Shown here: positions 14,417-35,234 of the stretch, piece after piece
Layout: every line of letters begins with the position of its first letter
Numbering within the stretch: the stretch's first letter is position 1
From: a virus
Reading direction: 5' to 3' (one strand)
IMG/VR virus record: IMGVR_UViG_3300002514_000081
Span: 1 to 38,850 of that record
Length of the DNA stretch: 38,850 nucleotides
The notes under the pieces: model-generated
Seen by the model: only the letters and a program-made list of their open reading frames with translations
The model's database searches: none
Told to the model about the DNA's origin: nothing
Position numbers and translations under genes: made by a program

Positions 14417-16045
14417 TTATTTAAGTATCCAATCCCATTCACTAAGTATTTTTAACTTTTTATTAGTTTCCGTACCGTGTATATTTCTATCAATTTTTGA
14501 CTTTTTGTCAACATTCTTGTTTTCTTGTGATTTATTATTATGAGGCCTTCCGTCAAGTATAGCATCTGGAAGATCATCATAAGAATTTCTTGTAACTGAC
14601 ATTGCTTTTAACATGGCATCATTAATTAATCTTGAATTTTTACTATAGTCTTCAGATGCATCATAAAGCCAAGTACCTATTGCAAAACTCATAACAAGAT
14701 CATCATTGTGACCTTTCATACCTTGCGCCTTATTTCCAATCCATACAAAAGTCTTAAGCTCATCATAGAATCTAGAGCTATATATTTTTATCATTTTATT
14801 TCTCAAGACTTCTTCTAGTTTTGTTAAAATTAAAGATCTTGTCCTTCCGCTTGTTGTAAATCCAGCAAGATCTGTGTCATATTCGGGCGTATACCCACCA
14901 ATATACACTGCTTTTCTTTTCTTGTAATACATGTTGGGATAATCTATCTCTTTCATTTTTAATATAGTTGCATATCCATAGCTATTATTCTCAGGACAAA
15001 CAAGAGCTTTATTATACTTCATTCCAAACTCTGCTATGAGCTCTCCAAATCTATCTGGCGGAATTTTACCCTTATATTCTGCAACACACTCTCCGGAAGT
15101 TACATCTATAACATGAAATGTAGAGTAATCGCGAGAGTCTCCCCTAGAAACGTCTGCTGAAATTATGTAACTGTGCTCTGAAAGCGGGTATTCCCATATC
15201 CACACACCCATATCTGGTCCAGACCTATCTCTAGGTGGTCTTATTTGCGCTCTGATGTACTCCATATCTATGCTTGATAGAAACGTTTCTCCCGACGATG
15301 CGAAGTCACAGAGATACTCCTGGGCAATTTGTCTATCTGATAGGTTTTTCGTTGTTTCGCTAAACCACTCATCGTCTCTATCGGGATGCGCGTCCCACGG
15401 AAGCTTTATTGGATTAAATTCATTTAGATTTGTCTCTGCATCTTTATAGAGTTTGTAATACTGGCCACCTACACCATTCGGTGTAGATAAAATTATAACT
15501 CGGCCACCGGTAGATATCGTAGGATACAATCCCATCCAAAGTTCATCAAAGTTTTTAACAAAAGCAGCCTCATCTACTATAAGCAGTGATAGTGCTTCTG
15601 ATCTACCTGCGTCGTCTGATGTTGGAATTGCCTTTATTGATGAACCATTGCTTAATTCAATTAACTGTTTATTATTAGTTGTTATTGAAGGCATTACTAT
15701 CCAGCTGGGAAGACTTCTTATCATTATTTTAACTTTTGATATAAAGTTTTGAGCAACACTAAGCTTTGTAGCAATTACTAGTACATTTTTATCTCTCTGG
15801 AAAAGTGCCATCCAGACAGCATATGCTGCAACCAGTGTTGACATTCCTAGCTGTCTAGACTTTAATATTATATTAAATCTATTCTCTATAAAGTCTTCAA
15901 CACAGTCATCTTGAAACTTATATGTATCAAACCCAATTAATCCCTTTATTGGATGCTGTATCTTTAAGTAGCTATTAAAAAAGTATACAGGATTTTTTCC
16001 ACTTTTAACTATCTCTTTTATTTGCCTTGACTTGCTGGCAGACAT
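14417..16045 (-). CDS. Terminase large subunit, T4 gp17-like
   Basis: DNA-packaging ATPase and nuclease docking on the portal. ATPase domain: adenine-binding FDTYKFQDDCVE (39-50), P-loop LKSRQLGMST (61-70), Walker B LLIVDEA (154-160) with catalytic Glu159, and coupling motif ILSTPNG (185-191). The P-loop lacks the Lys before Ser/Thr that T4 has (SRQLGKTT), so Lys62 or Arg64 probably substitutes, as in other deviant terminase P-loops. RNase H-like nuclease domain: Asp298 in IISADVSRGDSRDYSTF, Glu352 in VCPENN, and Asp448/449 in GHNDDLVMSFAI. Length 542 aa versus 610. ATG at 16043-16045, one base after the upstream stop. I cannot identify a small terminase subunit in the window. Confidence 0.97.
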   Translation of the reverse strand: MSASKSRQIKEIVKSGKNPVYFFNSYLKIQHPIKGLIGFDTYKFQDDCVEDFIENRFNIILKSRQLGMSTLVAAYAVWMALFQRDKNVLVIATKLSVAQNFISKVKIMIRSLPSWIVMPSITTNNKQLIELSNGSSIKAIPTSDDAGRSEALSLLIVDEAAFVKNFDELWMGLYPTISTGGRVIILSTPNGVGGQYYKLYKDAETNLNEFNPIKLPWDAHPDRDDEWFSETTKNLSDRQIAQEYLCDFASSGETFLSSIDMEYIRAQIRPPRDRSGPDMGVWIWEYPLSEHSYIISADVSRGDSRDYSTFHVIDVTSGECVAEYKGKIPPDRFGELIAEFGMKYNKALVCPENNSYGYATILKMKEIDYPNMYYKKRKAVYIGGYTPEYDTDLAGFTTSGRTRSLILTKLEEVLRNKMIKIYSSRFYDELKTFVWIGNKAQGMKGHNDDLVMSFAIGTWLYDASEDYSKNSRLINDAMLKAMSVTRNSYDDLPDAILDGRPHNNKSQENKNVDKKSKIDRNIHGTETNKKLKILSEWDWILK

Positions 16046-16443: not shown

Positions 16444-16692
16444 CTAAATGTAATTATCTATTTGCGAAAGAATTGAAAATACTCTTTTTGAATTTGTACT
16501 TTTAAATTCTTTAATTTCTTTTTCAGAAGGCCTCCAGCCCTCTTTCCATTTTTTCTTTCTAGGTTCTGCAAACATTATTGAACAATCTTTACAAACCCCG
16601 TATGTAAGAAAAAACTCTGTATCCTGACCTGTTCCCATCATTATATCACACATTGGACAAAAGATTGGAATTTTATTACTCACAATAGACAT
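16444..16692 (-). CDS. Small zinc-ribbon protein, 82 aa
   Basis: Two Cys pairs, FCPMC (Cys12, Cys15) and CKDC (Cys34, Cys37), make a classical four-Cys zinc ribbon, followed by a basic linker (EPRKKKWKEGWRPSEKEIKE) and a short helix. Such proteins often bind nucleic acid or act as adaptors; the target is unknown. I chose ATG 16690-16692, which has GGAAAGGA ending five bases upstream, rather than upstream in-frame starts that extend into the Mre11-Rad50 gene. It overlaps the end of that gene by 17 bases, implying translational coupling. No homologue in T4 comes to mind. Confidence 0.7.
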   Translation of the reverse strand: MSIVSNKIPIFCPMCDIMMGTGQDTEFFLTYGVCKDCSIMFAEPRKKKWKEGWRPSEKEIKEFKSTNSKRVFSILSQIDNYI

Positions 16693-19600
16693 ATGAATCC
16701 TTTCCATTTTTTGTAATCTCCAGCGATCCATCAACACAATCTTTTACAGCATCAACATGAGAAATAACTATTATATTTCTAAACCATCTCTTTAAAGATT
16801 CGAGAAGTCTTGCACAAGATTCAAGATTTGTTTCGTCAAGAGCACCAAATCCTTCATCTATTATTATCATATTTGTTTTTGTAAGTGATGAAGTATTTAT
16901 CAAGGCAACCCTAATGGCAAGAGATGCTATCATTTTTTCCATGCCAGACGCAAGCTCAATAACTCTCTTGCTATCTCCGTAATCTATATAGATATCCATT
17001 GAATTTGAATCACTATCTGCTTCAAGATTTATTGTAAAGTCTACGACCCCGAGAAGTATTTTTGATATCTCAGAATTAATAATCGGGAGTCTTGACATCA
17101 TTATTCTTAACGGAATACCCTTCTTTGATGATGCTTGCATAAATAAGTCGTAAATTTTTAACTGATCCTTTATCTCTTTGAATCTGTCCCTATCGTCAGA
17201 TAGTGAATTTTTTCTTATCTTTAGTGTAGCTATTTCTTCGATGATGCTATTTTTGTCTAGATCGAGATTTGAAATAAACTTAGATATATTGTCTATTTTA
17301 TCATGCACAATTGACTCATCATCACTTAATATCATAAGATTCATCTCATCTAGTCGAGCCTTTTCTTTAGACAACTTTTCTTTTAGTATTAATGACTTAT
17401 CTGTTAAATTTTCTATATTTGAATTACTCCTAATAATGGAGTGCTCTAGGTCTTTCTGTCTAGATATAAGGGCATTATATTTTCTAATTTTATCTTCCGG
17501 GTCTATTTCAGATAAAACTTTAATACAGTCAGATGCTCTCTCTATTTCATCCAGTGTTTCAGATAGCGATTCAAGATGATCTTTTATCATAGCTTTGTCT
17601 TCATGTGAAGATTTTATAAACATACATGAAGGATATTGATCGCCGCAAGGGACTATGCTTAGACTCTCTGCAGACTTCTCTATTCTTTCTAGCTCTTTTG
17701 CTATTCCATCTCTCTGGCCACAAAGAGATATAGAAGTTTTCTCAAGAGATATCTTTGCGTCTCTCTGGCTTTTAAGCTCTTCTATTGAAACTGAATCTAC
17801 TACAGATATTATCTTTTCTAACTTTTCATTGAGATCTAGGGCGCCTTCCTTTTCACTTAATATGCGGTCTAAGACTTTATTACTTTCTATGTCTATAGAT
17901 TTAACAACTTTTTTCTGCTCATTAACCTGTCCTATTGTAAAGCTACTGGAAGAATCGCTAGACGCTATCTTTACCCTAAGGTCACCTAGTATTTTTCTAT
18001 TTAAAGATATTTTATTAGATATTTCTGTAAGACTTAGCTTCTTCTTTTCTATCTCAATCTCTACTTCAGGTATTACTACATCCCAATCTTTATTTTCTAT
18101 AGACCTCATAATATCTCTTATTTGGGATGAATCTCGCTTACACATATCATTCATCTTATCAAACACTTCAAGATCTAGAAATTTTGTCAATATTGATTTT
18201 CTTGATGTAGCACCTTCATTTAAAAAGTTATTCATGCCGCCTTGAGATGCAAGAGATGTCATTAAAAAATCATCAGATATTCCTATCATTCTTCTTAAAG
18301 TTTTCTCTGTCTCCCTTCGCTGTTCCTCACTAAGGTTTTCAACAACAGATCCACTTTCATCAATTCTTTCTATTTGAAGTGATGTTGAAGCATATTCTTC
18401 TCCCTTTCTCGTTGTATGCTTTACTGTAGATCTTTTTATTCTAAATTTTTCTCCATTTAAATTTATCTCTATTGATGCATGACATGAATTTTTTCTTGTA
18501 TTGATAATGTGCAAGTTTTTTACAGATCCCCTATCAGTTGTATTAAATAAACAATACATCATTGATCCAATTATAGAAGATTTTCCTCTTGCATTTTTTC
18601 CAAATATTCCAGTTATTCCAGGATTAGATTTAAAATTTATATAATTGTTTTTTCCATAAGCAAATAAATTATCAAACTTTATATTTTCAATTTCCCATCT
18701 AGAGTTTCTTAGAATTTCGTCTTTCTCACTAATCTCTGATATATACTTTACTATTAGATTATTCATATCTTCTGATTCTTCATCTAGAAGATTTGAATTT
18801 TTAAAAAAATCTTTAAATAGAAATTTATGAAAAGAAGGATCTCTAAGATTTAATGTTTCAGAATTATTTCCTATTGATATGTGATATTTCTTTGGATCAA
18901 ACTGGTGATCATTTTTAAAAACAACTTCAGTTGCAAAATGTTGCTTTTTAAGTATTGATCCTATTTCTTGAGAATCTGCTTGTGTTATTATTGTATCTGA
19001 CTTTATTCTAAATCTTGATTTCTTTGGAAATCTTTTTGCTTCATTAATCGTATCTTCGACATTTCCTTTCCACTCAATTGTTACAAACGGTGTTGAATGA
19101 AGTATTGGATAAAACTTAACTGTGAAATCGTTTTTATCTTTAATATCCCAAAATAGAAATCCCTTTCCTTGACTTTCACCATAGTTTTGTTGTATTGATG
19201 ATCCACAGTATGCCATTGTTTTTTCTTTATTTAAAAATTGTGCCCTGTGTATATCACCTAGCATGGTAAAATCAAACATATCAAAGAAGTCATCTGTTAC
19301 GTCGCCATCTATCTCCCAATCTATATCTGTTTTTGAACCCCATACAGGACCATGAAATAGTGCAATATTTATTTCATTATCAACTGGGACAACTCTTGGC
19401 CATCCTTCTTCATCGAAACATGAGAATACACACCAGTTAAATCCGCTAATACCTGTAGGATATATTCCAGATTTTTTATACAAGTGTATATTTTTATTGC
19501 CAATTGCAGAGAGTATTGGTGTTATTGCATCCTGCCTATCCTTGTTCATGATTAATCCGTCATGATTTCCAAGTATAACATGGACTGGACATATCTTGCA

Positions 19601-19804
19601 TAGCTCTTCAAACCACCACGTAAGATTTTCAATAAGCTCTGGTGAGATACCTTGAGTTTTTGAATGTACAATATCTCCTCCAACGTATATTACGTCTGGT
19701 GAAAGAGATCTGCATGATTTAAAGAAATCTTTAAATGACTCTATGTATTCATCGTGGCGTGAAAGACCACGCCAGTGTATGTCTGCAATATGAACTATTT
19801 TCAT
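16676..19804 (-). CDS. Fused Mre11-Rad50 (SbcD-SbcC) nuclease-ATPase, T4 gp47-gp46 in one chain
   Basis: Recombination exonuclease for end resection and debranching of replicated DNA. Residues 1-340 are Mre11/SbcD-like: ADIHWRG (Asp8, His10), VGGDIVHS (Asp44), LGNHDG (Asn80, His81), LFHGPV (His151), LGDIHRAQ (Asp184, His186). Residues about 370-1042 are Rad50/SbcC-like: Walker A GKNARGKSS (402-410), a Q-loop region around SLASQGG (517-523), long coiled coils, a hook-like apex CGDQYPSC (720-727), ABC signature ELASGMEKMI (950-959), Walker B MIIIDEGFGALDE (979-991) and a His switch (ISHVD). T4 encodes these as two genes (339 and 560 aa). There is no stop or internal ribosome binding site at the junction. 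ATG at 19802-19804 has a poor upstream site. Confidence 0.95.
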   Translation of the reverse strand: MKIVHIADIHWRGLSRHDEYIESFKDFFKSCRSLSPDVIYVGGDIVHSKTQGISPELIENLTWWFEELCKICPVHVILGNHDGLIMNKDRQDAITPILSAIGNKNIHLYKKSGIYPTGISGFNWCVFSCFDEEGWPRVVPVDNEINIALFHGPVWGSKTDIDWEIDGDVTDDFFDMFDFTMLGDIHRAQFLNKEKTMAYCGSSIQQNYGESQGKGFLFWDIKDKNDFTVKFYPILHSTPFVTIEWKGNVEDTINEAKRFPKKSRFRIKSDTIITQADSQEIGSILKKQHFATEVVFKNDHQFDPKKYHISIGNNSETLNLRDPSFHKFLFKDFFKNSNLLDEESEDMNNLIVKYISEISEKDEILRNSRWEIENIKFDNLFAYGKNNYINFKSNPGITGIFGKNARGKSSIIGSMMYCLFNTTDRGSVKNLHIINTRKNSCHASIEINLNGEKFRIKRSTVKHTTRKGEEYASTSLQIERIDESGSVVENLSEEQRRETEKTLRRMIGISDDFLMTSLASQGGMNNFLNEGATSRKSILTKFLDLEVFDKMNDMCKRDSSQIRDIMRSIENKDWDVVIPEVEIEIEKKKLSLTEISNKISLNRKILGDLRVKIASSDSSSSFTIGQVNEQKKVVKSIDIESNKVLDRILSEKEGALDLNEKLEKIISVVDSVSIEELKSQRDAKISLEKTSISLCGQRDGIAKELERIEKSAESLSIVPCGDQYPSCMFIKSSHEDKAMIKDHLESLSETLDEIERASDCIKVLSEIDPEDKIRKYNALISRQKDLEHSIIRSNSNIENLTDKSLILKEKLSKEKARLDEMNLMILSDDESIVHDKIDNISKFISNLDLDKNSIIEEIATLKIRKNSLSDDRDRFKEIKDQLKIYDLFMQASSKKGIPLRIMMSRLPIINSEISKILLGVVDFTINLEADSDSNSMDIYIDYGDSKRVIELASGMEKMIASLAIRVALINTSSLTKTNMIIIDEGFGALDETNLESCARLLESLKRWFRNIIVISHVDAVKDCVDGSLEITKNGKDSYVYCE

Positions 19805-20337: not shown

Positions 20338-21315
20338 TTAACTAAGTATAGAACCTGTCTTAATTGATTCAATTCTAAACTTTAAAAGATCGCCTCTTTT
20401 CCACTCTGTCGATGCATTTCTTAATATCATAAATTCTTGCTTTTTCATATCACCAACATCATGTGTAGTACTATTATTTAAAATTTTTACTCTGCATCCA
20501 AAACTATCAAGTGACGTTGCTATCATATGAGATTCTAATTTCATATCTGAATCAAGTGCTAAAAGAACTGGTGTTTTATTCTTTACAAGCTTTTTAAATA
20601 GTCTGCTTTCTTTTGAAAGCTTTGATCCTAAAATACAAGTTGAATTTTTATTTGCTTTTACAAGATCAAATGGTCCCTCTACTATAGTCACTTCTCTGTT
20701 CCAATCTATGTTAATTTCATTAAAAATTATTTCTGTCTTTTTATTTTTTGAATTTTTATATTTTATTTTTTGATCATCATCTATAGTTCTGGATACAAAG
20801 TAATTTATCTCTCCCTCGGTTGAAAATGATGGAAATATTACTTTACGTCTGTAATTACCGTCTATAGATGTTCCTATTTTAAAATACCATAAATCGCTTA
20901 CTGTTAAGCCTCTTTTAAAGAGATACGATATACATGCCCTTATATCTGGATCGCGAGTATTTCCAAGATATGCTTCTGATAAAAGTATAAAATTATCTGG
21001 AATTTTTGGAATTTCACTATCAACATTTTCAATATTTTTAGATAATTTTATAGAATTGTTTGTATCAAATTTCTCTTTAAACTTTACAGATAAAGAATTT
21101 GAAACTTTGTCTCTTAGTATAAAAAATAAATTATTTGATTTTACACCGCATATCCAGCAGTGACACTGCCATGTTTCAATATTTATTGAAAATTTTTCTT
21201 TTCTTTTATTTTCACATGAAGGACACATTACAGCAACATTAACTCCGTCTCTAGCGACTTTTATATCACCAAAAACAGATCTTAGGAAATCTAGCTTTTC
21301 AGTTACAGAGTTCAA
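20338..21315 (-). CDS. DNA primase, T4 gp61-like (zinc-binding plus TOPRIM)
   Basis: Makes RNA primers for lagging-strand synthesis with the replicative helicase. N-terminal zinc motif CPSC (Cys31, Cys34) and CHCWIC (Cys53, Cys56), then a DnaG-like middle with LFKRGLTVSDLWYFKIG (133-149). TOPRIM: TIVEGPFDLVKA (210-221; Glu213, Asp217) and LLALDSDMK (251-259; Asp255, Asp257). Length 325 aa, close to T4 gp61 (342). The start is TTG at 21313-21315 with AAAGG six bases upstream; no better upstream codon exists in frame. The helicase (gp41) is not in the window. Confidence 0.88.
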   Translation of the reverse strand: MNSVTEKLDFLRSVFGDIKVARDGVNVAVMCPSCENKRKEKFSINIETWQCHCWICGVKSNNLFFILRDKVSNSLSVKFKEKFDTNNSIKLSKNIENVDSEIPKIPDNFILLSEAYLGNTRDPDIRACISYLFKRGLTVSDLWYFKIGTSIDGNYRRKVIFPSFSTEGEINYFVSRTIDDDQKIKYKNSKNKKTEIIFNEINIDWNREVTIVEGPFDLVKANKNSTCILGSKLSKESRLFKKLVKNKTPVLLALDSDMKLESHMIATSLDSFGCRVKILNNSTTHDVGDMKKQEFMILRNASTEWKRGDLLKFRIESIKTGSILS

Positions 21316-21360: not shown

Positions 21361-21906
21361 CTATTTACACTCTAGTATTCCAGCTCTTGCTATGACATAT
21401 GCATCTGCCATATCATAGCATGTATCCTTTGTGATCTTTAATCCCTTTCTAGGGCCAGATTTTAAGATTTTAGTCGGCCATAAGAAATCGATCTCACCTG
21501 ATACCCAATTTAAAATTTGTGCCTTTGTTGGCTGTCCGCCGTCTTTTTTTCTAATAATTTTTATATCCAGTGATCTTCTTGCATGATTGACGTTTATATG
21601 GATAGGATCTAAGTTAAATGTCTCATAGCATATAAGTGATACTATTCCATTAAATCTTGCTAGTGTTGATAATGTTCTCGCTGATGAAAATCCTGATCTG
21701 AATGATTGTAAATTTTCCTCTATATAAACGCTTTTTATATTATAATCAATTAAAAGAGAAGACATTTTATCTCTTACTAGTTTTGCTTTTTTGTATGTGT
21801 TCTTTATACTTGATAGCTCTATTGCACCCATAGAAACAAGTGATCCACTCATATCTAAGACACACCATCCAGTACATGCAGTTGAAACATCTAGGCCAAG
21901 TATCAT
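21361..21906 (-). CDS. RuvC-like Holliday junction resolvase
   Basis: RNase H-fold endonuclease for branched DNA. ILGLDVSTACTGWCVLD (2-18) gives the first Asp (Asp6); SVYIEENLQSF (59-69) gives Glu63/Glu64; YDMADAYVIARAG (164-176) gives the C-terminal acidic pair Asp165 and Asp168. Length 181 aa, typical of RuvC. T4 itself uses the unrelated endonuclease VII (gp49); a RuvC-type enzyme here would substitute for it in clearing branches before packaging. Its ATG overlaps the stop of the upstream structural gene by one base (TAATG), so it is translated with tail genes rather than with replication genes only. Confidence 0.9.
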   Translation of the reverse strand: MILGLDVSTACTGWCVLDMSGSLVSMGAIELSSIKNTYKKAKLVRDKMSSLLIDYNIKSVYIEENLQSFRSGFSSARTLSTLARFNGIVSLICYETFNLDPIHINVNHARRSLDIKIIRKKDGGQPTKAQILNWVSGEIDFLWPTKILKSGPRKGLKITKDTCYDMADAYVIARAGILECK

Positions 21907-24326
21907 TAAAAATCCATCTTAAATCTTATTACCATAGAATCATTCACTCTCTTTTTAATCGGTTGTGCGAAATTTGCCCTCATAATTATATTTAAATTTT
22001 CATCATGAAGATTAAGGCTGTCTATATATACAAACTTCTTTCCAATATCTGATGGACTTCCAGAAGCTGACAAGACTTTATATTGAGGGTTGCTAGATGA
22101 ATTAAATAATCCGCTGCCTAGTTCAATATTATACATTTTTATATGAATATTTTGGTGACCCTTAAATGTTATTTCAAACTGATCTTTTCCAAAAAATGTT
22201 AGCGCTGGGTGTTTAACAAGAACAATTCCCTCATCATATATACAGTTCCCTATATTTGACCATTTGGGATTTGGACCTTGTGCATCACACCTATATACAC
22301 CTCCCTTTCCGTTATCCCTTAGCGATATCTTTATCTTTCCACCTGATCCAGTTAGTGAGTTATCTACAATTGTCAAAGACTCCTCTTTTATTTGATCTCC
22401 ATAGAAAAGATTTGATATGTCGAAAAAGCATATCTCATTAGAAGATAAATCTCGCGTTCTTTGTGCAATTGTGAGTATTGGACCTGATATTCCACCCATG
22501 CTTTCAGGTGTAACGCCTGCTATTAGTGCTGTTATTGTATCGGGACCTGTTGCATCAGGAAGTGTTGTTGCATCATCATCTATTGCTGCAATTACATCTG
22601 AAACTGCTGTTGTTGGCAATCCAGGAAATATTGTTCCTGTGGATATCATTGAATCTATAGATACCAGACTTAAATTTTGACCGCCGTATATAGATTTAAA
22701 CTTTGAACTATCACTGCTACCGGTAGATAAAATAGTATAATCTGGCATAAATCTTCCATTGTCATTTGGAAGTATAGTTAAATTTCTTGCCCTTATTGAT
22801 GCAGATGCGTAGACAAATTGTGTTGCAGTTATATTTTCAACAGTTGTATTTAATGTTGAAGCAGTAAGATTATATAAACGCGGAGAGAATCTTTTAATAA
22901 ACTCCCTGGTGTGGTTTTCAAGATTCATAACAAACCCTCCGACACCAAATGAGAAATCTACATTAAATGGATCATCAGTTTTTTTACTTGTTGTCTGAAA
23001 TGGAGTCAAGAGAACGTCTCTTTCCCTTGATTCCCTTATAAACATTGGCGGAACGTAGAACATTAAATCTTTAAAATTTTGCGGTGAAGACTTGCTATAT
23101 TTTTCAATTTCTTTATTTGCAATATACCTGTTGAATATTTTTAGCTCATGAACTTCTGCATTCAGCTTGTGCCTGAAGAAGAAGTTAACTGGATCTTCAG
23201 TGAGACCTTCTAGCGTAGGATATACACCTTCATTTGAAACATTTTCATTAAAGAATTTTGCCTCATTATCATACCCCTCATAATAATTTCCTACAATAAG
23301 TGCAGAGCATCCAATATGAGGTGGGGGAAGTATATCTGACCCTGTAAATACAAATTGTGTAGACATACTATCAATTAAGATACTGCCTGTACCCATATTA
23401 AAATCTTTTCCGCCCCACCTTATTGTAACATGATGCCAATTATTTCTTTTTAAAGAGTTGTCAGGTGTAACAAATACAAGATCTTTAGGATGTGTATGTG
23501 ATGTGGCATTGAAATTTATAGTACTTGGAGGTACATCTGCACTGTGACTTAGCTGTAATGCTATTCTAAATCCATCGACCTTCTGATCTTGGTCACGACT
23601 ACTTCCAGAAACTAAAGATACAGCAAATGATGATGATAGATGAAAAATTGTCCCAGCTTTATAAGACTCTAGCCTCTCTGTAGTATATCTTGGATTTATA
23701 TAAAAGTCTATTGAAAATGATCCGGTGGGAGAGTACGGCCTCGGCTCATTTACTGTTCTACTTAAGTTTGGGTATATTATAGCAGAATTTTCAGGAAGCC
23801 CAGAAGCAGTTAAAAAATTTAAAGTACTATAGTTTGTATATGCAAATTCACTAACGTCATATCTTGCAGCATAGAATGGTAAAAGATTATCTTTTATTAT
23901 CAACTTTTCAATTGCAACATCGTTAAGAGAGAAAGGTGGATCAAATCTTGTTATATACAATCTTTTAGAGTTTCTAGTTGGACTATTTGCTGTATTAACC
24001 CCTGATAGATATGTTTCCATATACTCGGAAACATCTACAGACGTCCCAGCTAGCATTGCACCATTTACAATTAAAGATGCTGCATCTTTTGCTATTGTTG
24101 CTAGAAATGCAGATTCGTCAAATGAACTATCTGTCGATCCATCAGTTCCAAATGATAGCTCGCCTGTTTCTCCGGGAGCTATCAAATCTTTTAATGCCGG
24201 ACTGGGTCTTGGAGATAGTGCAGCAGATCCAGATGTTCCATTTGATGAACTAAGGTATCTAGTTTCAGGATGAAGAGTTAGTGAAAAGTTCTCCTGTCGC
24301 TCATTTAAGACTTTGACAATAGACAT
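21906..24326 (-). CDS. Tail/baseplate structural protein with LamG-like domain, 806 aa
   Basis: Probable virion surface protein. A concanavalin A/LamG-like beta-sandwich spans about 195-410: GSFSIDFYINPRY (202-214), NNWHHVTIRWGG (295-306), then AEVHELKIFNRYIANKEIEK (390-409), the classical LamG end. Such domains often bind glycans or other virion proteins. The last 100 residues share a motif with the upstream 416-aa gene: FNSSSNPQYKV ... KKFVYIDSLNLHDENLNII ... QPIKK...RFKMDF. The N-terminal 190 residues are unassigned. ATG at 24324-24326, nine bases after the previous stop. Which baseplate or fibre position it holds is unknown. Confidence 0.78.
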   Translation of the reverse strand: MSIVKVLNERQENFSLTLHPETRYLSSSNGTSGSAALSPRPSPALKDLIAPGETGELSFGTDGSTDSSFDESAFLATIAKDAASLIVNGAMLAGTSVDVSEYMETYLSGVNTANSPTRNSKRLYITRFDPPFSLNDVAIEKLIIKDNLLPFYAARYDVSEFAYTNYSTLNFLTASGLPENSAIIYPNLSRTVNEPRPYSPTGSFSIDFYINPRYTTERLESYKAGTIFHLSSSFAVSLVSGSSRDQDQKVDGFRIALQLSHSADVPPSTINFNATSHTHPKDLVFVTPDNSLKRNNWHHVTIRWGGKDFNMGTGSILIDSMSTQFVFTGSDILPPPHIGCSALIVGNYYEGYDNEAKFFNENVSNEGVYPTLEGLTEDPVNFFFRHKLNAEVHELKIFNRYIANKEIEKYSKSSPQNFKDLMFYVPPMFIRESRERDVLLTPFQTTSKKTDDPFNVDFSFGVGGFVMNLENHTREFIKRFSPRLYNLTASTLNTTVENITATQFVYASASIRARNLTILPNDNGRFMPDYTILSTGSSDSSKFKSIYGGQNLSLVSIDSMISTGTIFPGLPTTAVSDVIAAIDDDATTLPDATGPDTITALIAGVTPESMGGISGPILTIAQRTRDLSSNEICFFDISNLFYGDQIKEESLTIVDNSLTGSGGKIKISLRDNGKGGVYRCDAQGPNPKWSNIGNCIYDEGIVLVKHPALTFFGKDQFEITFKGHQNIHIKMYNIELGSGLFNSSSNPQYKVLSASGSPSDIGKKFVYIDSLNLHDENLNIIMRANFAQPIKKRVNDSMVIRFKMDF

Positions 24327-26392: not shown

Positions 26393-28429
26393 TCACAGAG
26401 ATGTAATATTAGCCTCTGTTACTGGAACTTCCATTGGAGGACCTGTTTCATCACCAATTTCTATGTCAAAAACCTGACTATCCTGGAGATCTAAATTAAT
26501 TATATGAAGCTTATACTTATCACCTATTAATCCCAAATCAATCTCTGATAAAGATGTCCCGTCACTTTCGGTTTGTAAAGCTTTATAATACTCTGGATCA
26601 AAAAATATTCTCATCCTTGTCTCTCCCGATGATCTCATTGTATCAACAAAAAAGTCTCCCTCTAGGTACATATTCGGATATGGCTTTGGAGCATTTGGCT
26701 TTGAAATACTTTTTGAATTTATTTTATTTTTAAACTTATCATAAGATACTAAAATTTGCTCAGAATATCCAGATGTTAAGCCTCTTGCATCTACGCAAGC
26801 TATTGCATAAATATAATTCTTGTCCCTATTATAGTTTACATCTACAAAAATCTTTCTTTGGCCTGCAACTCTAAAGCTTTTTTCGGGCGGGGCTTTTTCA
26901 AGTGGAACAACTCTTGATGTAGAGTTATCAAAGTCTAGCTCTCCTAGAAGCGTAAATGGAAGATCTGTACTTGCTCTTCTAAAAATTTGGTACCTTACAA
27001 CATCACGCTGCGGATTAGATGGTTCTTCCCATAGTATTGTAAGTGTATTATTTTGAAAATTATATTTAAATCTAATATTTTGAGGAGGTTTTGGTGCTAT
27101 TGTTTCAACACAGCTAACTTTTGTACTTACGCCTCTTGATGCAATTAAACTTACAGCAAAAACCTCTTCGTCTTGTGTTAGACCATCCGGATCTACTGCT
27201 GTTGCTTCGTATGCCGTTGCATGAATTATCTTAACTTTATAGACATACGATGCTCCATATTTTATATCAGAATCAAATATATTAAAGTTTCCATAATTGC
27301 TTATTATTATAGGTTCAAGCTCTTTTCTAGTCCAAGATTTACCATCATCTGACGACTGTATTTCAAACTTTTCTATATAAAGTCCAACTGCAATTGAACT
27401 TTCATTTATGGTAAAACCCTGATCAATTACTTCAGACTTTACAAAGACATCTGTCGCAGCTAGCTCTAGCTCAAACTCAGAAGTACTTAAGTTACTAGGA
27501 TTTGAATTCTGCACATAGTTTGTTTGAATTTGTTCTGCGTCATCAGCTATTCCAAGTAACTCATCCTGATATATATTGCCCCTATCCTCTAATGCAGCGA
27601 GAGTCATATTTGAAATTACTGCATTGTTAATTGTTGAGTTAAACTCTACAAATCTGACACTTCTCAATGCATCTGTAACTATTTCTTGCCTTGCATCAGT
27701 CGGTGCATATGCAACGCCCACTGGCTGAAGATTTCCAAGAGCTTTTCTTACAATATTTGTTGCCCCTGATATGCTTGCAAACGGAGATGATAAAAAAGCT
27801 GTTAGCTCTGAATTAGCATCTGTAACCATAGGTGAATTATGAAGTGTATCTTCAAATGCTACTGATGATGTTAGTGCATGATAAAATGCTGTATCAAGCT
27901 GGTTATCCATCAATATAACAGAAGAAAATCTACTATTTGCTACAGCACCTTCAAAAACTATCTTGTCTTTATTTTCAGATAGAAAATCTGATGAGTTCAT
28001 ATTACTATTAACATAGTCATATAAAAATGTTGATCCTGCATTTGTATACGGCATTGCTGACGGAACTCTTATCTTTATAATAACTGATCTTGCCGTCCGT
28101 GATCTTTTCTTTACAAACTCTATGTCAGCTTCACTAGATGATATATCAATTATTGACTCAACTCCTGTACTAACAGTTCTCTCATCTCTTGTATAGTAGT
28201 TATAGAAAAACTCAGAATCTATTGATATTACTTCTGGAAGATCTATAACCGTTGAAGGTGCTGCAGGATATGTTGCTGATTCCCATCCAGATATATTTTC
28301 TTCAAGGAATTCAGAAAAGCTTTCTGATGCAGATGACTCTGATCCTACCTGTGCTGCGTGGCTTATTTCAACTCCAGTTACCAGCTCTTCATCGCTTACC
28401 ATTTCTTGTATTAAGCTTTCTCCAGCCAT
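26393..28429 (-). CDS. Virion structural protein with fibronectin III-like domains, 678 aa
   Basis: Probable tail or baseplate protein. The clearest domain is FN3-like at about 445-560: PKPPQNIRFKYNF, LTILWEEPSNPQRDVVRYQI, then YIYAIACVDARGLTSGYSEQ. A second, weaker one lies at about 340-440 (YIEKFEIQSSDDGKSW ... YVYKVKIIHA). The N-terminal 330 residues, including ISIDSEFFYNYYTRDERTV, are unassigned and acidic at the start. The C-terminal FFVDTMRSSGETRMRIFFDP is probably a further beta domain. ATG start with AAGGAGATT upstream. FN3 modules are common on phage surfaces and may aid host-surface contact; here that is inference. Confidence 0.75.
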   Translation of the reverse strand: MAGESLIQEMVSDEELVTGVEISHAAQVGSESSASESFSEFLEENISGWESATYPAAPSTVIDLPEVISIDSEFFYNYYTRDERTVSTGVESIIDISSSEADIEFVKKRSRTARSVIIKIRVPSAMPYTNAGSTFLYDYVNSNMNSSDFLSENKDKIVFEGAVANSRFSSVILMDNQLDTAFYHALTSSVAFEDTLHNSPMVTDANSELTAFLSSPFASISGATNIVRKALGNLQPVGVAYAPTDARQEIVTDALRSVRFVEFNSTINNAVISNMTLAALEDRGNIYQDELLGIADDAEQIQTNYVQNSNPSNLSTSEFELELAATDVFVKSEVIDQGFTINESSIAVGLYIEKFEIQSSDDGKSWTRKELEPIIISNYGNFNIFDSDIKYGASYVYKVKIIHATAYEATAVDPDGLTQDEEVFAVSLIASRGVSTKVSCVETIAPKPPQNIRFKYNFQNNTLTILWEEPSNPQRDVVRYQIFRRASTDLPFTLLGELDFDNSTSRVVPLEKAPPEKSFRVAGQRKIFVDVNYNRDKNYIYAIACVDARGLTSGYSEQILVSYDKFKNKINSKSISKPNAPKPYPNMYLEGDFFVDTMRSSGETRMRIFFDPEYYKALQTESDGTSLSEIDLGLIGDKYKLHIINLDLQDSQVFDIEIGDETGPPMEVPVTEANITSL

Positions 28430-28482
28430 TCTATAAAATCTCCTTTTTTGTTTTAAAATATATTGATAGATAGTTCATAATT

Positions 28483-31400
28483 TTAACTTTCCCATGGAAG
28501 GAGAGCACTTGGTACATTACTATCTGTTCCTGTAAAAACTGCTGCGGTGAATTCAGGCGCAGTTATTGTATCATCACCTTCAAAGCTAAATGTTGTTGCT
28601 GGCGGAAGTATTGATACTGTTGCATAAAATTGTGCATATGTTCCACCTTCAGTATTGGCAGAATCTGACCACTCCTGATCAACAAGCATACAAAATACTC
28701 TTTCAAAAACTTTTGGATAAACTATTCTGTTTCTATATTTTTGAGAACTTAAAATTATTGATCTTTTTAATTCTCCTACAAGCCTGTCATAATTTAATGA
28801 TGCTTCTAAATCTCTATCTGCAAACATCTCAGCAGCATCGTTAGATAATGACTCAAGAAGATCCTCCTTGCCTGGATCAACACCATCGAAGAAAACATTT
28901 CCCTCTAGAAATGGAAATACATCTTCAGATACATCAAATCCAGTTGTCAATCTAAGATATGTTTTTAAAAGATTATCTATTGCGTGATTGTTGAAGACAT
29001 CTTGAGACGTAACATTATATCCAAAGTCTGAAGCGTCCCATGAATCTTTATATGCTTTTCCCGTATAGGTTCCTTTGTTTCCCTCAGTTCCATAGTGCCG
29101 TACAACAGTATCTGAAAGAACAGTATCTGCTGTTTGAGGATCTGGTGATGAAACATCTCCATCTATTTCTCCAGATCCCTCTTTTTCAGTATGCTCTGGT
29201 CTTCCCATAATTACAAATCTCGACGTATCAAATACAAACTCTCTCGGTGTTGCAAGCTCAGACTCTTTTAAAAGATTTCTTCTCCATATTTTTATAGATA
29301 CAAGTGTTGAATCTCTGTATGAAAGATCTCCGGTAGAATCCATTGCTCTGTTTCTTAAAGATTCCATCATTCCTGCCGTAATTGCAACTGGCATTATAAA
29401 TTTTCTACCAGTTCCTCCTGTATCTAGAAGTTCGGTTGTTTTGCAAAACCCAGCAAGATTTTTTGACTGATTTGTCATTATTGCTTTTGATGCAGGAAGA
29501 TATGGGTATTCCCTATTTGGAACTGCAAATGAATCATAGAGAGCTCTTGCTAATGATATTTGGTCTCTTGTTGTTGAAAAAAGTGTTGCCTGACCAAAAT
29601 CTTCGTCTGACATTATTTCTTCTAGTGGATTTTCAAATGTCTGTGATGTTAAATTTATTTCATCTATATGTGATATTACACCTGATGCAGCTGATTTTAA
29701 CGAATCTAGTATATTTCCTATATATAATGATGTTTGAATTGCATTTTTTTCGATATTTATGGCTGTATTATATATTTCGTCCATCATCTCTAGTGCTGAT
29801 TGTATATCCTTATAGTATCCATATCCCGTTGACCACGGCACAACATCATTATCATATTTTGTCTCAGTGAGGATGTCACCAATTTCACCCAAGAAGGGTG
29901 TACCTCCGTGCTGCCACTCTTCAAATGCATTAATATATGAATGTATAACTCTTTTATCGAACCATCCTGACGATCCTCCCCACTTATTTCCAACTGAAAC
30001 TCCTCCACCTGAGGAACGTCTTTCAGCAGAGTCTGTCCAGATTACAGCTCCGCCTGCAAATTGTTTCCAGACGCGCAAGCACAAAAGATATGCTGCAGAT
30101 ATCATGCTAGCCCTATTAATACCTCTTCCCGTATAATCATTTTCTAAAAGTATTTCTTCATTTCTGCTGCCAGGCATTGTTTGACATCCTGTCTCAAGTA
30201 TTTCTAAAAATTCATTTACAGCTTCTATAGGTGCATCAAAAACAGATCCCTTATCGCTATCTAGTTCAAATCCACCAACACCAAACATAATAGTAAAATA
30301 ATCATCGCCTATTTTTGATGAATTTGAAAAGATGCTTTCTTCGCTAGTATAGGCTTCTTTGCACATATAGGCATATGACCAGTCTTGTTCCCATGAAGTT
30401 CCCTTTTCCCCTCCGCCAAAGACTGGAGCTGACGTTTCATCCTTACCATTTGAGCCGTTAAATTCAGCAAATGTAATTCTGTCTCTCATATGATCTTTAA
30501 TATCTTCTGTTAAATCATCCCTTGCCTGTATGTAGATATCCCTTGCTTCTGCTTCTGAGGAAGCCTCTCTCCAGTTTTTATATTTATACTCATCTCTTGC
30601 AAGTATGTACTTCAATAGAGATCTAGTTATATTTCCATCATATGGGCCCATGTTTATATCACCAGTTGCTGTTGTACAAACTGCAAGAGGTACAATATGT
30701 CCTGGAAGCCATGAACCTGATCCGCCAAGGTTTGCCCAGGGTTTAAGTGTTTTTGCAAGTGCTTCAAATATTTTAACTATGAAAAGACTTGGTGTCAAAG
30801 AATAGTTTGAATCATATCCTGGTGTATAGGAAAAATGATTATTATTTTCGTTAAGCTTTTTTATTCCTGAAAGCCTGAGTAAGTTCTTCACAGAATTAGT
30901 CCCAAGAGAGTATAGGTTTGATATTAGTTTATTCAATCTTTCCTGAGACTCTGTAACTTCTCGCGTCGGTATTTCATCTACATAATATGATCTTCCAGAT
31001 CTACTCGAAGCTATTCCTTCTGCAAGATTAAAGTTTGATGTTGTAAATGACTCCACATACTGTTGATCTTGTGAACTAGCATCTTCATTTTCTGGAATAA
31101 GATGTGCAATGGCAGATGTATCTTTTGCTGACTCCCTACCATCAAGAATTGATTCTACTGTCTGTGAAGTATCAATACCAAGTATTGATGCTATTTCAGT
31201 AGGAATATCTCTTACCTCTCCCGTTCCATGTAGATCCATTTGAAAAGTTGCATTTTGAATAGCATCCATCCCGAATGCATGAATGAGTGCTCCGAGCGTC
31301 GAATGGGCCTCTGATCCTTCACCTCCATACACAGTTGCATCGCTCCAGCTATCGCCATCCTGATCATGATATTTTAAAACATCACTTAATGATATCATAT

Positions 31401-32418
31401 TGTTATCTTGTTCTGAATATAGATATAATTCTCCACCTGCTGTTACTAATTTTGGATATAGCAAGTTCCAATCAAGAAGTTTAGTTATAGTTGAATTTAT
31501 ACCGACACTGTATCCAACTATTCCATTTGTTGGATATTGTGAGTAGTCTGAGTCTGTGCCCGGTGTCATGACCCCATAGATACCGTTTGCAAATGCTCCC
31601 ATCCCGCCTAAATATGACAGTAGCTGTAAAACTATCGTCGTATTGGATGATCTTGCTACCCAATCACTTGTAAATCCTATTTTATATTCTATAAATTCTT
31701 CAACTGTAAAGTTTGTGTTGGCGTCATTCCATGCATTCTCGGCTGGCATTGGAATTATATCAGCTAGTGATGCTACAATTGACTCTCCGACCGTCGTCGT
31801 TCTTGACGACGGATGTGGTGTTACAACATCTATTGTATTAAAAGATTTAGCTTTTATATTTTGGCCATCAATAAACGAGCTAATTGACTCATATAGTGAT
31901 TCAAGATAGTCAATAGTAGATTTTGCAATATCCATATCTTCTTCGTATACATCTAAATACTCATCTGATTTTGAATCATTTTTAAAAATCTTTCCAGCAG
32001 ATGCATCTTCATATGAAAATTCAAGCATTTTTGTAAAAAATCCTAGCGCATCAGTATATCTTAGTTGCTTAAGTTGACATTGATAGTCAAATAGCTCCCC
32101 GTAAGATGTTGTCTGATAGTCATAGCCTTCTCCGTATGCAGACAAAGGAGGCAGGAACTCAAACATGCCTAGAATCTCAGGTCTTTGTGTTGAAAACCCT
32201 CTAGTATTTAGCATAGCTTCAAGATCGGGATTTAAATAAATATCATCATAGTTTTTTTCAACCAATACCATATCAAGATATGGCACGTTTGTAAGAGCCT
32301 GTGCTTCATCAAATGTTAGTGAGCTATCTTCTATTGATGACATTCCAGACGGAGTTGGCGACGAATTAATTTCAACCGGCTGTATTTGTACAATTATTCC
32401 GGGTGTTGGATTTCCCAT
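28483..32418 (-). CDS. Very large virion structural protein, 1311 aa, unassigned
   Basis: Largest gene in the window. I recognise no catalytic or named domain. It is acidic, Asp/Glu/Ser/Tyr-rich and soluble, without membrane segments or long coiled coils; a helical stretch (MMDEIYNTAINIEKNAIQTS and following SLYIGNILDSLKSAA) lies in the second half. Size, context between FN3-containing proteins, and tight coupling (its ATG overlaps the upstream stop, TAATG) suggest a major baseplate or tail-tip component. It is not a typical tape measure: there are no hydrophobic helices and little heptad repetition. The central portion has many Gly/Trp/Tyr residues (AGGAVIWTDSAERRSSGGG), suggestive of beta structure. 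Confidence 0.72.
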   Translation of the reverse strand: MGNPTPGIIVQIQPVEINSSPTPSGMSSIEDSSLTFDEAQALTNVPYLDMVLVEKNYDDIYLNPDLEAMLNTRGFSTQRPEILGMFEFLPPLSAYGEGYDYQTTSYGELFDYQCQLKQLRYTDALGFFTKMLEFSYEDASAGKIFKNDSKSDEYLDVYEEDMDIAKSTIDYLESLYESISSFIDGQNIKAKSFNTIDVVTPHPSSRTTTVGESIVASLADIIPMPAENAWNDANTNFTVEEFIEYKIGFTSDWVARSSNTTIVLQLLSYLGGMGAFANGIYGVMTPGTDSDYSQYPTNGIVGYSVGINSTITKLLDWNLLYPKLVTAGGELYLYSEQDNNMISLSDVLKYHDQDGDSWSDATVYGGEGSEAHSTLGALIHAFGMDAIQNATFQMDLHGTGEVRDIPTEIASILGIDTSQTVESILDGRESAKDTSAIAHLIPENEDASSQDQQYVESFTTSNFNLAEGIASSRSGRSYYVDEIPTREVTESQERLNKLISNLYSLGTNSVKNLLRLSGIKKLNENNNHFSYTPGYDSNYSLTPSLFIVKIFEALAKTLKPWANLGGSGSWLPGHIVPLAVCTTATGDINMGPYDGNITRSLLKYILARDEYKYKNWREASSEAEARDIYIQARDDLTEDIKDHMRDRITFAEFNGSNGKDETSAPVFGGGEKGTSWEQDWSYAYMCKEAYTSEESIFSNSSKIGDDYFTIMFGVGGFELDSDKGSVFDAPIEAVNEFLEILETGCQTMPGSRNEEILLENDYTGRGINRASMISAAYLLCLRVWKQFAGGAVIWTDSAERRSSGGGVSVGNKWGGSSGWFDKRVIHSYINAFEEWQHGGTPFLGEIGDILTETKYDNDVVPWSTGYGYYKDIQSALEMMDEIYNTAINIEKNAIQTSLYIGNILDSLKSAASGVISHIDEINLTSQTFENPLEEIMSDEDFGQATLFSTTRDQISLARALYDSFAVPNREYPYLPASKAIMTNQSKNLAGFCKTTELLDTGGTGRKFIMPVAITAGMMESLRNRAMDSTGDLSYRDSTLVSIKIWRRNLLKESELATPREFVFDTSRFVIMGRPEHTEKEGSGEIDGDVSSPDPQTADTVLSDTVVRHYGTEGNKGTYTGKAYKDSWDASDFGYNVTSQDVFNNHAIDNLLKTYLRLTTGFDVSEDVFPFLEGNVFFDGVDPGKEDLLESLSNDAAEMFADRDLEASLNYDRLVGELKRSIILSSQKYRNRIVYPKVFERVFCMLVDQEWSDSANTEGGTYAQFYATVSILPPATTFSFEGDDTITAPEFTAAVFTGTDSNVPSALLPWES

Positions 32419-35234
32419 TATTTTTTCCTAATTTTCTTCTTTTTTGGTGACCTGTCTACTAATACTGTAGATCCTACAATCTTATCATCAATAACTGTAC
32501 CGTCTATCTTTATTATTGTAGCATAATAATTTATTTGTCCTATATAATCTTTATTTGTATAGTCTACAAATACAATAGATTCTGAGGGATGTGCTGAACC
32601 GCATATTGATCTTCTTCCCTGCCTCTCACACGATATTACAATTGAATCAATCAGCTTTAACGTTGCGAAATCTGTTGCAGGTATTACAGAAAATCTTAAA
32701 ACTGGGAATCCCTTTGATGATGTTGTTACAGACTGTCCTCTTGTTGATGATATTGTGAAATCAAACTCTGCTAAATTTACTAAAATTTCTGTATTGTCAC
32801 CTATGTCAAATTTTTGAAGTACATCGTCGGGTGTTGTTTTTGTCTGGCTAGCCAGTGTACCCTTTGAAAGAGACATTTTGTCAAAATTCTTTGTAAGTTT
32901 TACTGATTGAAATATCGCCTCTGTATCCAATTCTTGTGATACACTTGTTATTGAACCAACTGCAGTGGTATTTACTTTTAAGTTTAAATTATTTACAACA
33001 GAACTTCTTATTGATGTGAATGTTGACGGTAAGAGAAGCATAGATGTATTCTTTACAACATTTAAGTCTGTTTGTAGTTTTGTAGTAATAGCTCTTGAAA
33101 ATTCTTCAGGAGTTGTTAGAAATGCTCTTACGCTATAGATATATTTCATTCCATGTGTTGGAAAGGGAGCAGATGATCCATCATCTTTAAATTCACCGCT
33201 TCCTGAATATCCAAGAAATATTTCTTCTGATAGAGTTATATTTTTTCTAAATATTCCAAATACAACTCTATCTGATAGTGAATTTTTTATCTGTTCTATT
33301 TCTCCTCCAAATAAATCTTCCATTCCTGCATCTTGTAATATTGAAAGAAGAATATCACTTTGTGTATCTAGTATATTGTAGTCTATATTGAAAGATATCA
33401 TCGCTGGATTGTATGGTATTGTATCTTTTCCATACAGCGAATTTCCTATGCTCGCATTACTAATCTTAAGATTGCTAGTAGATATTGATAAAAATTCTGC
33501 ATTTCTTTGACACTTTGCAGTTGCAAATACTTTAGAAAATTTGTCGCCACCTGACTTAAAAAATAATCTCGCCCTGTAGATATATGTCAAACCTTCTTTT
33601 ACATTTGAATCAATCATAATTCTTCCAGCTGTTGTGGTACGAGTAAAATTCTCAGATGATCTAAAATCTAATCTTTCTTGGCCCAGGGCTTTGCTAAATA
33701 ACTTAAAAGGCACTCTAGATCCTGCAATTTTTTTATAAATTGCAACTCCAGAAATATCGCTTGTAATATCTGAAACACTTATTAATATTCCCCCTCCGAT
33801 ATTTTTGGCAGTAATTGAGCAAGATGTATAATTAAATGATCTGCCGGAAACTGATGTACTTGAAAAATTTGATAATTTTAACCCTGTCTTTATAACTGGA
33901 CAAACTCTTATCATATTTAAATTTTTTGTTCCATTTTGAAATGAAGACCCATCAAATATATTTTCAGATGGTGGAGTACTAATATTTCCATTTTGTCCCC
34001 CTGGGCTTGGAATTTTACTTCTTCTTATAAACTCTTTAAATGGAAATAAAACTAAGGGAGAGTCATCTACTATCTTTCTGATATAAATTTTTTCGTCATT
34101 TATTGTATTATCTTTTTTTCCTATTGATGCTGCAATTCTTCTAGATCCATTTGATGACATAACAGAGCTAACAATGGGAATTTCACCTGGGATATAGTAA
34201 TTCTCAACATTTATTTTATGATTAACTCTTACGTTGAACTTTTCTGTAATCATCCCTGACTTCTTATCTCTTATTCTTAGTATAATAAAAAATGAAGACA
34301 TGGAATATAACAATCTTGAATTTATTTTAAATTTATGGGTTATATCTCTAACCCTGTCTGGAACTGATTTTTCAATTGTAATATAATCAGAGTTGCCAGA
34401 TCCATATTTTACTGTTGTTTGCGGGAATGAGTTTGAAAAACCCTTTTCAAATTTTGATCTCATTGAGTTTAGATTTTTGTTTAAGTTTCTATTTGATGAG
34501 TATATTTTATTTGTAACAAGTCCTGGCGAAATAGTTGGGTCAGGACTTGACATATTTATCATTGGCCTTAGTGAATCTACAGGATCTATCCCGTTTGATA
34601 GAAGTGAAGTATATATGTCACTAACTTCGAGACTATTTTCCACGCTATTGTTATCAACAGTTGAAGTTTGAACCTGAGGCATTCTCTTGTTTAACAGACC
34701 TTTTCTTTTTAGTGATCTCTTTTCTACTATTACTGATTTTATTGCGCTTCCAAACATATCGCTATCATTAGACTTTTTAGACTTTGAAGAACTTCTAGAC
34801 ATTCTAGTATCTCTTATTTCGTTAATCATGTCTATTTTTCCTTTCATGATAACCTTATCATTAAAGTCATTTGTCATTATTCTTGAGTTGTCTGATTTTT
34901 GCCCAAATATAACAGACGAAACTGAAATTGGAGATTTTTCTGATATATTTTTAAAAAACCCAGGAGAAATTTTTAAATCAGATTTTACAACTAAAAATTC
35001 TATTTCTGTGGCACCTATTGAAATTAAATTTCTCATATCGCATTTAAAATAAAACTCATAGTCTATTTCTTCACAATCTCTTTTTACAACTTTCTGAGAG
35101 ACGGATAAGCCTAGAGGATTTTGCCCCTCATTTATAAGAATATCTAATGTCTTATCTTTTATGCTTGTAATTTTTGACGAATTTCCGCCTATGCTTGAAA
35201 GTATTTTTGGGTGTTTCTTTTTTCTTATTATCAT
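32418..35234 (-). CDS. Virion structural protein with FN3-like repeats and basic ends, 938 aa
   Basis: Probable tail or baseplate protein. Repeated beta-strand endings (LTYIYRARLFFKSGGDKFSK, 549-568; GMKYIYSVRAFLTTPEEFSR, 696-715) and SGVAIYKKIAGSRVPFKLF (495-513) look like diverged fibronectin III domains related in style to those of the 678-aa protein. Both ends are notably basic (MIIRKKKHPK and RSPKKKKIRKK). The middle N-terminal part is Ser/Asn-rich and probably flexible (about 140-260). ATG at 35232-35234 is one base after the upstream stop. No enzyme motif seen. FN3 calls are by eye. Confidence 0.72.
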   Translation of the reverse strand: MIIRKKKHPKILSSIGGNSSKITSIKDKTLDILINEGQNPLGLSVSQKVVKRDCEEIDYEFYFKCDMRNLISIGATEIEFLVVKSDLKISPGFFKNISEKSPISVSSVIFGQKSDNSRIMTNDFNDKVIMKGKIDMINEIRDTRMSRSSSKSKKSNDSDMFGSAIKSVIVEKRSLKRKGLLNKRMPQVQTSTVDNNSVENSLEVSDIYTSLLSNGIDPVDSLRPMINMSSPDPTISPGLVTNKIYSSNRNLNKNLNSMRSKFEKGFSNSFPQTTVKYGSGNSDYITIEKSVPDRVRDITHKFKINSRLLYSMSSFFIILRIRDKKSGMITEKFNVRVNHKINVENYYIPGEIPIVSSVMSSNGSRRIAASIGKKDNTINDEKIYIRKIVDDSPLVLFPFKEFIRRSKIPSPGGQNGNISTPPSENIFDGSSFQNGTKNLNMIRVCPVIKTGLKLSNFSSTSVSGRSFNYTSCSITAKNIGGGILISVSDITSDISGVAIYKKIAGSRVPFKLFSKALGQERLDFRSSENFTRTTTAGRIMIDSNVKEGLTYIYRARLFFKSGGDKFSKVFATAKCQRNAEFLSISTSNLKISNASIGNSLYGKDTIPYNPAMISFNIDYNILDTQSDILLSILQDAGMEDLFGGEIEQIKNSLSDRVVFGIFRKNITLSEEIFLGYSGSGEFKDDGSSAPFPTHGMKYIYSVRAFLTTPEEFSRAITTKLQTDLNVVKNTSMLLLPSTFTSIRSSVVNNLNLKVNTTAVGSITSVSQELDTEAIFQSVKLTKNFDKMSLSKGTLASQTKTTPDDVLQKFDIGDNTEILVNLAEFDFTISSTRGQSVTTSSKGFPVLRFSVIPATDFATLKLIDSIVISCERQGRRSICGSAHPSESIVFVDYTNKDYIGQINYYATIIKIDGTVIDDKIVGSTVLVDRSPKKKKIRKK

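Follow-up and report, generated by a model that had tools for sequence, protein, structure and literature searches.

In phage T4, the products of two genes, gp46 and gp47, process DNA ends for recombination-dependent replication (PMC3175470). Fusions of the Mre11 and Rad50 domains into one chain were described in 2011 from Mimivirus (R555), a Bacillus phage, plasmids and eukaryotes (Yoshida, Claverie and Ogata, PMC3175470). That paper names Bacillus phage 0305phi8-36 as the phage fusion, infers further fusions for aquatic phages, notes that some bacteria and some eukaryotes carry fused genes, and places primases next to such genes in ocean samples. The coiled coil of Rad50 proteins ends in a zinc hook, described as CXXC in a second source (PMC9569753).

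We analysed a 38,850-base virus record, IMGVR_UViG_3300002514_000081, referred to here in its whole length as the window. A preliminary description, made from the sequence alone, had noted in it a gp47-gp46-type single chain in a T4-like phage and had set this against T4 and cellular systems, said to use two proteins. The statement stands for T4, which has two genes; for cells it is too strong, given the fused bacterial and eukaryotic copies listed in PMC3175470.

A single frame encodes both domains

The fused Mre11-Rad50 gene occupies 16676..19804 on the minus strand and is one uninterrupted frame of 1042 aa, from an ATG start to a TAA stop, with zero internal stops. The one-frame chain announced in the preliminary description is thus borne out by the reading frame, by Pfam matches to both domains, and by an identical gene found elsewhere. 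Split gp47 and gp46 genes adjoin or sit close in several phages, and one indel could join them, which would make the single frame a sequencing or assembly error. We reject this reading as scarcely credible: contig L003, from another IMG/VR assembly, carries the complete fused gene, 100% identical to that of the window, and the gene is in one frame at 79 of 82 loci, the other three being cut by contig ends, with its length kept near 1050 aa. Contig L005, also from IMG/VR, carries the final 516 residues, again 100% identical. Because L003 and L005 have the same sequence as the window, an artefactual frameshift or stop near residues 340-370, which the preliminary description had named as a refutation of the fusion, is unlikely. 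Among named phages, no near DNA match was found.

Both halves retain the motifs and folds of their families

Conservation was read from an alignment of 78 rows (77 loci and the window). It omits L013 and L074, which are cut, L003 and L005, which match the window, and L004, a duplicate of L008. Folds were taken from an AlphaFold2 (AF2) model built from a 54-row alignment (pLDDT 84.4, pTM 0.52); the placement of the nuclease relative to the ATPase is unsure because of the pTM value.

The Mre11/SbcD half, residues 1-361 (18722..19804, minus strand), consists in the model of a phosphoesterase and capping domain (1-298) followed by a helix-loop-helix (323-333 and 341-361), the nuclease, cap and C-terminal arrangement of Mre11/SbcD proteins. 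Residues 1-187 match Pfam Metallophos (E 4e-14), and residues 1-298 match SbcD/Mre11 folds with Z 24.5-25.8, among them S. aureus SbcD (7dog, Z 25.8) and E. coli SbcD (4m0v, Z 24.9). All motifs that supply metal ligands in phosphoesterases (DxH, GDxxx, GNHD, H and GHxH) were located, the last of them reading GDIH, not GHxH, in the window fusion; the aspartate of this GDxH motif is also present in 80/80 sequences of the sister clade introduced below. The positions given in the preliminary description for Asp8, His10, Asp44, His81 and Asp184/His186 hold, and all of D8, H10, D44, N80, H81, H151, D184 and H186 are invariant in 78/78 aligned sequences; N80 and H151, like H1016 of the second half, had been missing from the earlier list.

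The Rad50/SbcC half, residues 369-1042 (16679..18700, minus strand), has two ATPase lobes separated by an antiparallel coiled coil. Pfam AAA_23 matches residues 375-599 (E 9e-11), SMC_N residues 372-1031 (E 1e-12) and SbcC_Walker_B residues 946-1002 (E 2e-5, slightly under the family cut-off), while PHROG 77, the phage SbcC family, spans residues 291-1039. In the model, residues 370-1042 match SbcC/Rad50 heads with Z up to 31.8, the best being E. coli SbcC (7yzo, Z 31.8). Pfam, PHROG 77 and fold agree on an ABC ATPase head in two parts, with the antiparallel coiled coil inserted between them. Walker A (402-409), the signature (S953-G954-M955-E956) and Walker B (to D983-E984) lie where the preliminary description had put them, and K408, S409, S953, G954, M955, E956, D983, E984 and H1016 are invariant in 78/78. 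The ABC signature, usually LSGG, is SGME in the window fusion.

A short linker joins the halves

By DSSP on the AF2 model, the last Mre11 helix ends at residue 361 and the first Rad50 strand starts at 369, leaving a linker of 7 residues (362-368; 18701..18721, minus strand). The 2011 paper (PMC3175470) argues that the C-terminal helix-loop-helix of Mre11 binds the root of the Rad50 coil, and that 9-12 residues would bridge Mre11 to the Rad50 N-terminus; the modelled helices 323-333 and 341-361 and the short linker fit this argument. The helix-loop-helix probably rests on the root of the coiled coil of its own chain, in which case 7 residues would suffice.

It is conceivable that the chain, though made fused, acts as two separate proteins because translation also begins at the junction or a protease cuts there; the junction region is variable, and the model has low-confidence stretches at 303-316. 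We consider this very unlikely. As to initiation, a start codon plus Shine-Dalgarno sequence is not enriched near the junction: one was present in 3/40 relatives vs 8.4% of control windows, and the window itself offers only ATG347, with no Shine-Dalgarno match. An internal start at the junction was accordingly set aside as unsupported by this comparison.

The fused form prevails among close relatives

The preliminary description had hinted that such fusions might be rare and had proposed counting fused and split forms with each half. IMG/VR was searched with each half alone, to avoid favouring fused genes. Of the best 80 loci for the Mre11 half, 78 were fused and two were cut by contig ends; for the Rad50 half, 76 of the best 80 were fused and four were cut. 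A split gp47/gp46 pair was not seen among close relatives in the best-80 scans with either half. In the sister clade, around Microcystis phage Mel-JY01, the fusion was found in 80/80 (best 80 of 590 relatives, queried with the whole fusion). The scans gave the best 80 of 583, 579, 585 and 590 relatives, in overlapping sets (L004 and L008 being the same contig), and describe close relatives, not all phages. Fused genes were also found as one CDS of 1301-1326 aa in the cultured jumbo phages PAU, PTm1, pT24 and MA9V-1; T4, cyanophages, T5-like phages and Herelleviridae phages that we checked keep two genes. The preliminary description had held that the fusion would be known, not new, if nearly all relatives carried it, and this is what the counts for the best loci give (78/80, 76/80 and 80/80). 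Its hint of rarity is not borne out, fusions having been published in 2011: the fusion is of a known kind, neither rare nor new. Fusion is the norm across large clades of aquatic phages, where it mostly goes by different names.

Of 23 long contigs from the window clade, 22 contain no gp46-like match besides the fusion, and the remaining one has a marginal second match of 15 bits. Metallophos is matched by the fusion alone in 12 of 14 contigs, the other two having a second, smaller match; the fusion therefore stands in for the gp47/gp46 pair. The second, smaller metallophosphoesterases in G001 and G005 (contigs of L083 and L080) are frames of 242 and 287 aa. Genome contigs yielded 8 loci, all in metagenome-assembled genomes. 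In the plasmid collection no record held most of the query, and matches were partial only (9 and 17 records).

In the 484-kb phage LR756508 (L006:5600-6620), about 1 kb interrupts the fused gene just after the GDIH motif. Within this insertion lies an ORF of 305 aa that contains several CxxC pairs and looks like a homing endonuclease; an Rfam scan of the insertion gave no match.

A probable common history of the phage fusions

We built trees of each half from 43 chosen rows: 16 from the window clade, 14 from the sister clade, five jumbo phages, seven split phages and E. coli. All 35 sampled fusions fall in one clade in the Mre11-half tree (99/96) and, with weaker support, in the Rad50-head tree (91/75), and both trees share the order (jumbo phages,(Mel-JY01 clade, window clade)), which shows co-descent of the two halves. 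Because both trees unite all 35, one old fusion in phages, followed by joint descent of the halves, is the simplest reading of these sequences. It is limited by long branches and by the small number of rows outside the fusions, the seven split phages and E. coli.

Phage fusions could instead have arisen several times independently, as the 2011 paper proposed for a wider set: it found its 13 fused sequences, which include plasmid and eukaryotic ones, not monophyletic (PMC3175470), and our trees cover phages and E. coli. For phages this seems improbable to us, given one clade for the 35 sampled fusions in both trees with the same inner order. A junction signature, RNxxW, was scored by script in 38/78 window-clade, 35/80 sister-clade and 1/6 jumbo sequences, some rows being misread; we dropped it as proof of a single fusion event because its occurrence is patchy and the script read the wrong place in some rows. 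Beyond the known fusion, the gain here lies in scale and in history, with a single ancient event apparently behind the phage fusions.

Genomic neighbourhood

Synteny was counted over L008-L086 and L265-L344, using only loci with enough flank. Downstream, a small Cys-rich gene of about 82 aa with Cys pairs (16444..16692, minus strand) overlaps the 3' end of the fusion, within which it starts (ATG at 16692) with an AAAGGA site just upstream; a homologue follows the fusion in 62/70 lineage loci. The terminase large subunit gene (14417..16045, minus strand; PHROG 2, Terminase_6N) is downstream of the fusion in 70/70 lineage loci and in 0/40 sister-clade loci. Upstream, a DnaG-type primase gene (20338..21315, minus strand; PHROG 47) is conserved in 57/62 lineage loci and 61/61 sister-clade loci.

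PHROG matches in the window include the terminase large subunit, portal, protease, major head protein and tail sheath. We take these genes as T4-type, which agrees with the T4-like phage of the preliminary description. Large minus-strand ORFs of 806, 678, 1311 and 938 aa in 21906-24326 and 26393-35234 had no PHROG match at E 1e-3.

Proposed function

Taken together, we think it very probable that the gene encodes a single-chain phage Mre11-Rad50 (SbcD-SbcC) enzyme that assembles as M2R2 and processes DNA ends; the oligomer, activity, role and tip metal are assigned by inference. Against this reading speak the GDIH form of the GHxH motif, the SGME form of the signature and a tip spacing other than CXXC. 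Two identical chains would probably form the usual M2R2 assembly, in which the nuclease halves would dimerise, ATP would bring the ATPase heads together around a DNA end, and its hydrolysis would gate the Mn-dependent nuclease. By analogy with its family, the most likely function is DNA-end processing for recombination-dependent phage replication; like T4 gp47/gp46, the enzyme would process double-strand ends for such replication and for repair, and perhaps it also aids degradation of host DNA. The fixed 1:1 stoichiometry pointed out in the preliminary description follows from the single chain, and the tie of nuclease to ATPase that it also named may hold; because the subunit ratio is fixed, a chain of about 1,040 residues should be handy for structural work.

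The coiled-coil tip has a CX6C motif

The most unusual feature of the window fusion is the tip of its coiled coil, residues 720-727 (CGDQYPSC; 17624..17647, minus strand), where CX6C stands in place of CXXC. A cysteine pair is thus present at the expected place: C720 and C727 are invariant in 78/78 aligned sequences and sit, in the AF2 model, at the turn of the coil arms, between a helix ending at 717 and one starting at 731. The spacing is not that of the CXXC zinc hook. From 235 loci, 233 frames were read; comparison of the last 400 residues left 132 distinct ones, and 129 of these 132 members of the window lineage have CX6C; the exceptions are L065 (a long insert), L244 (CSC...C) and L169. 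The sister clade has CXXC in 80/80 (best 80 of 590 relatives), as do the jumbo, T4-like, T5-like and cyanophage proteins that we checked. The Pfam Rad50_zn_hook model was rejected as a tip test, not being diagnostic: it misses E. coli SbcC, C48C1, Mel-JY01 and LR756501, and thus CXXC proteins too. We class the tip as a variant of the Rad50 hook because the other Rad50 features are present.

L169 (IMGVR_UViG_3300009103_002250) is a window-lineage fusion with a CXXC tip of the sister-clade type. In a head tree with My1, JT007, F370 and E. coli left out and three test rows added, it places firmly inside the window lineage, as sister of L083 (100/99). Over 55 aa, its tip segment resembles the sister clade at 60% (59 vs 28 bits), its heads being lineage-type, and these mixed affinities point to exchange of the tip, as a module, by recombination. 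The swap also suggests that CX6C and CXXC tips do the same job.

The CX6C tip would probably still join partners through a metal. It may be, however, that it has lost both metal binding and the joining of partners and that the cysteines have another role, for instance in a CCH-type finger or a disulfide within the chain, as the unusual spacing and a common histidine (H734, 66/78) could indicate. We find this rather unlikely, in view of the invariance of both cysteines, their position at the turn between the coil arms, and the CXXC tip that L169 carries in their place within the lineage. A more far-reaching reading, which we find less likely than not, is that a large marine phage lineage replaced the CXXC hook with a conserved CX6C tip of different metal geometry or partner, as a module exchangeable by recombination. 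The conserved CX6C in place of CXXC looks new; among the papers listed by literature searches, scant in subscription journals, none reported a CX6C hook. If this reading is true, nature would have redesigned the joint of Rad50. The tip would show how far the hook can change yet work.

Comparison with known systems

Among the papers listed by literature searches, scant in subscription journals, none reported the window phage clade beyond the 2011 paper. Giant-virus proteins lead the BFVD fold matches of the AF2 model, the seven best including some of 969-1389 aa (e.g. Tupanvirus, Harvfovirus). Two unusually long BFVD matches come from phages whose relatives presumably keep split genes: A0A068CB47, of 1009 aa, from Listeria phage LMTA-57, and A0A0A7NQU9, of 997 aa, from Lactobacillus phage LfeInf. 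Each may be a separate fusion or an effect of annotation.

T4 gp47/gp46 and other phage SbcD/SbcC pairs share with the window fusion their motifs, their order and, as we infer for the window, their two activities. They differ in having a CXXC tip and two genes, where the window has one frame. The jumbo-phage fusions of Sphingomonas PAU (gp288), Tenacibaculum PTm1, PTm5 and pT24, Chryseobacterium MA9V-1 and MA9V-2, and the 735-kb phage LR756501 are single frames of 1202-1326 aa in the five read and belong to the clade of the window fusion in both half-trees; their annotations read 'metallo-phosphoesterase', 'DNA repair' or gp288 and do not name a fusion, and, unlike the window fusion, they have a CXXC tip in the five read. 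The IMG/VR clade around Microcystis phage Mel-JY01 (WWT39521.1) is likewise fused, with GDxH and SGME in 80/80 (best 80 of 590 relatives). It shares the upstream primase (61/61) with the window lineage and differs in the CXXC tip (80/80) and in that no terminase was found downstream (0/40).

The R555-type fusions, judged by the description in PMC3175470, resemble that of the window in being one chain with Mre11 first, then Rad50, across a short linker. R555 likewise has, according to that paper, Asp for the second-last nuclease His (Pf His206), and the 2011 fusions are also abundant in aquatic viruses, with primase genes nearby. Unlike the R555-type proteins, the window fusion belongs to a phage with T4-type packaging genes and carries a CX6C tip.
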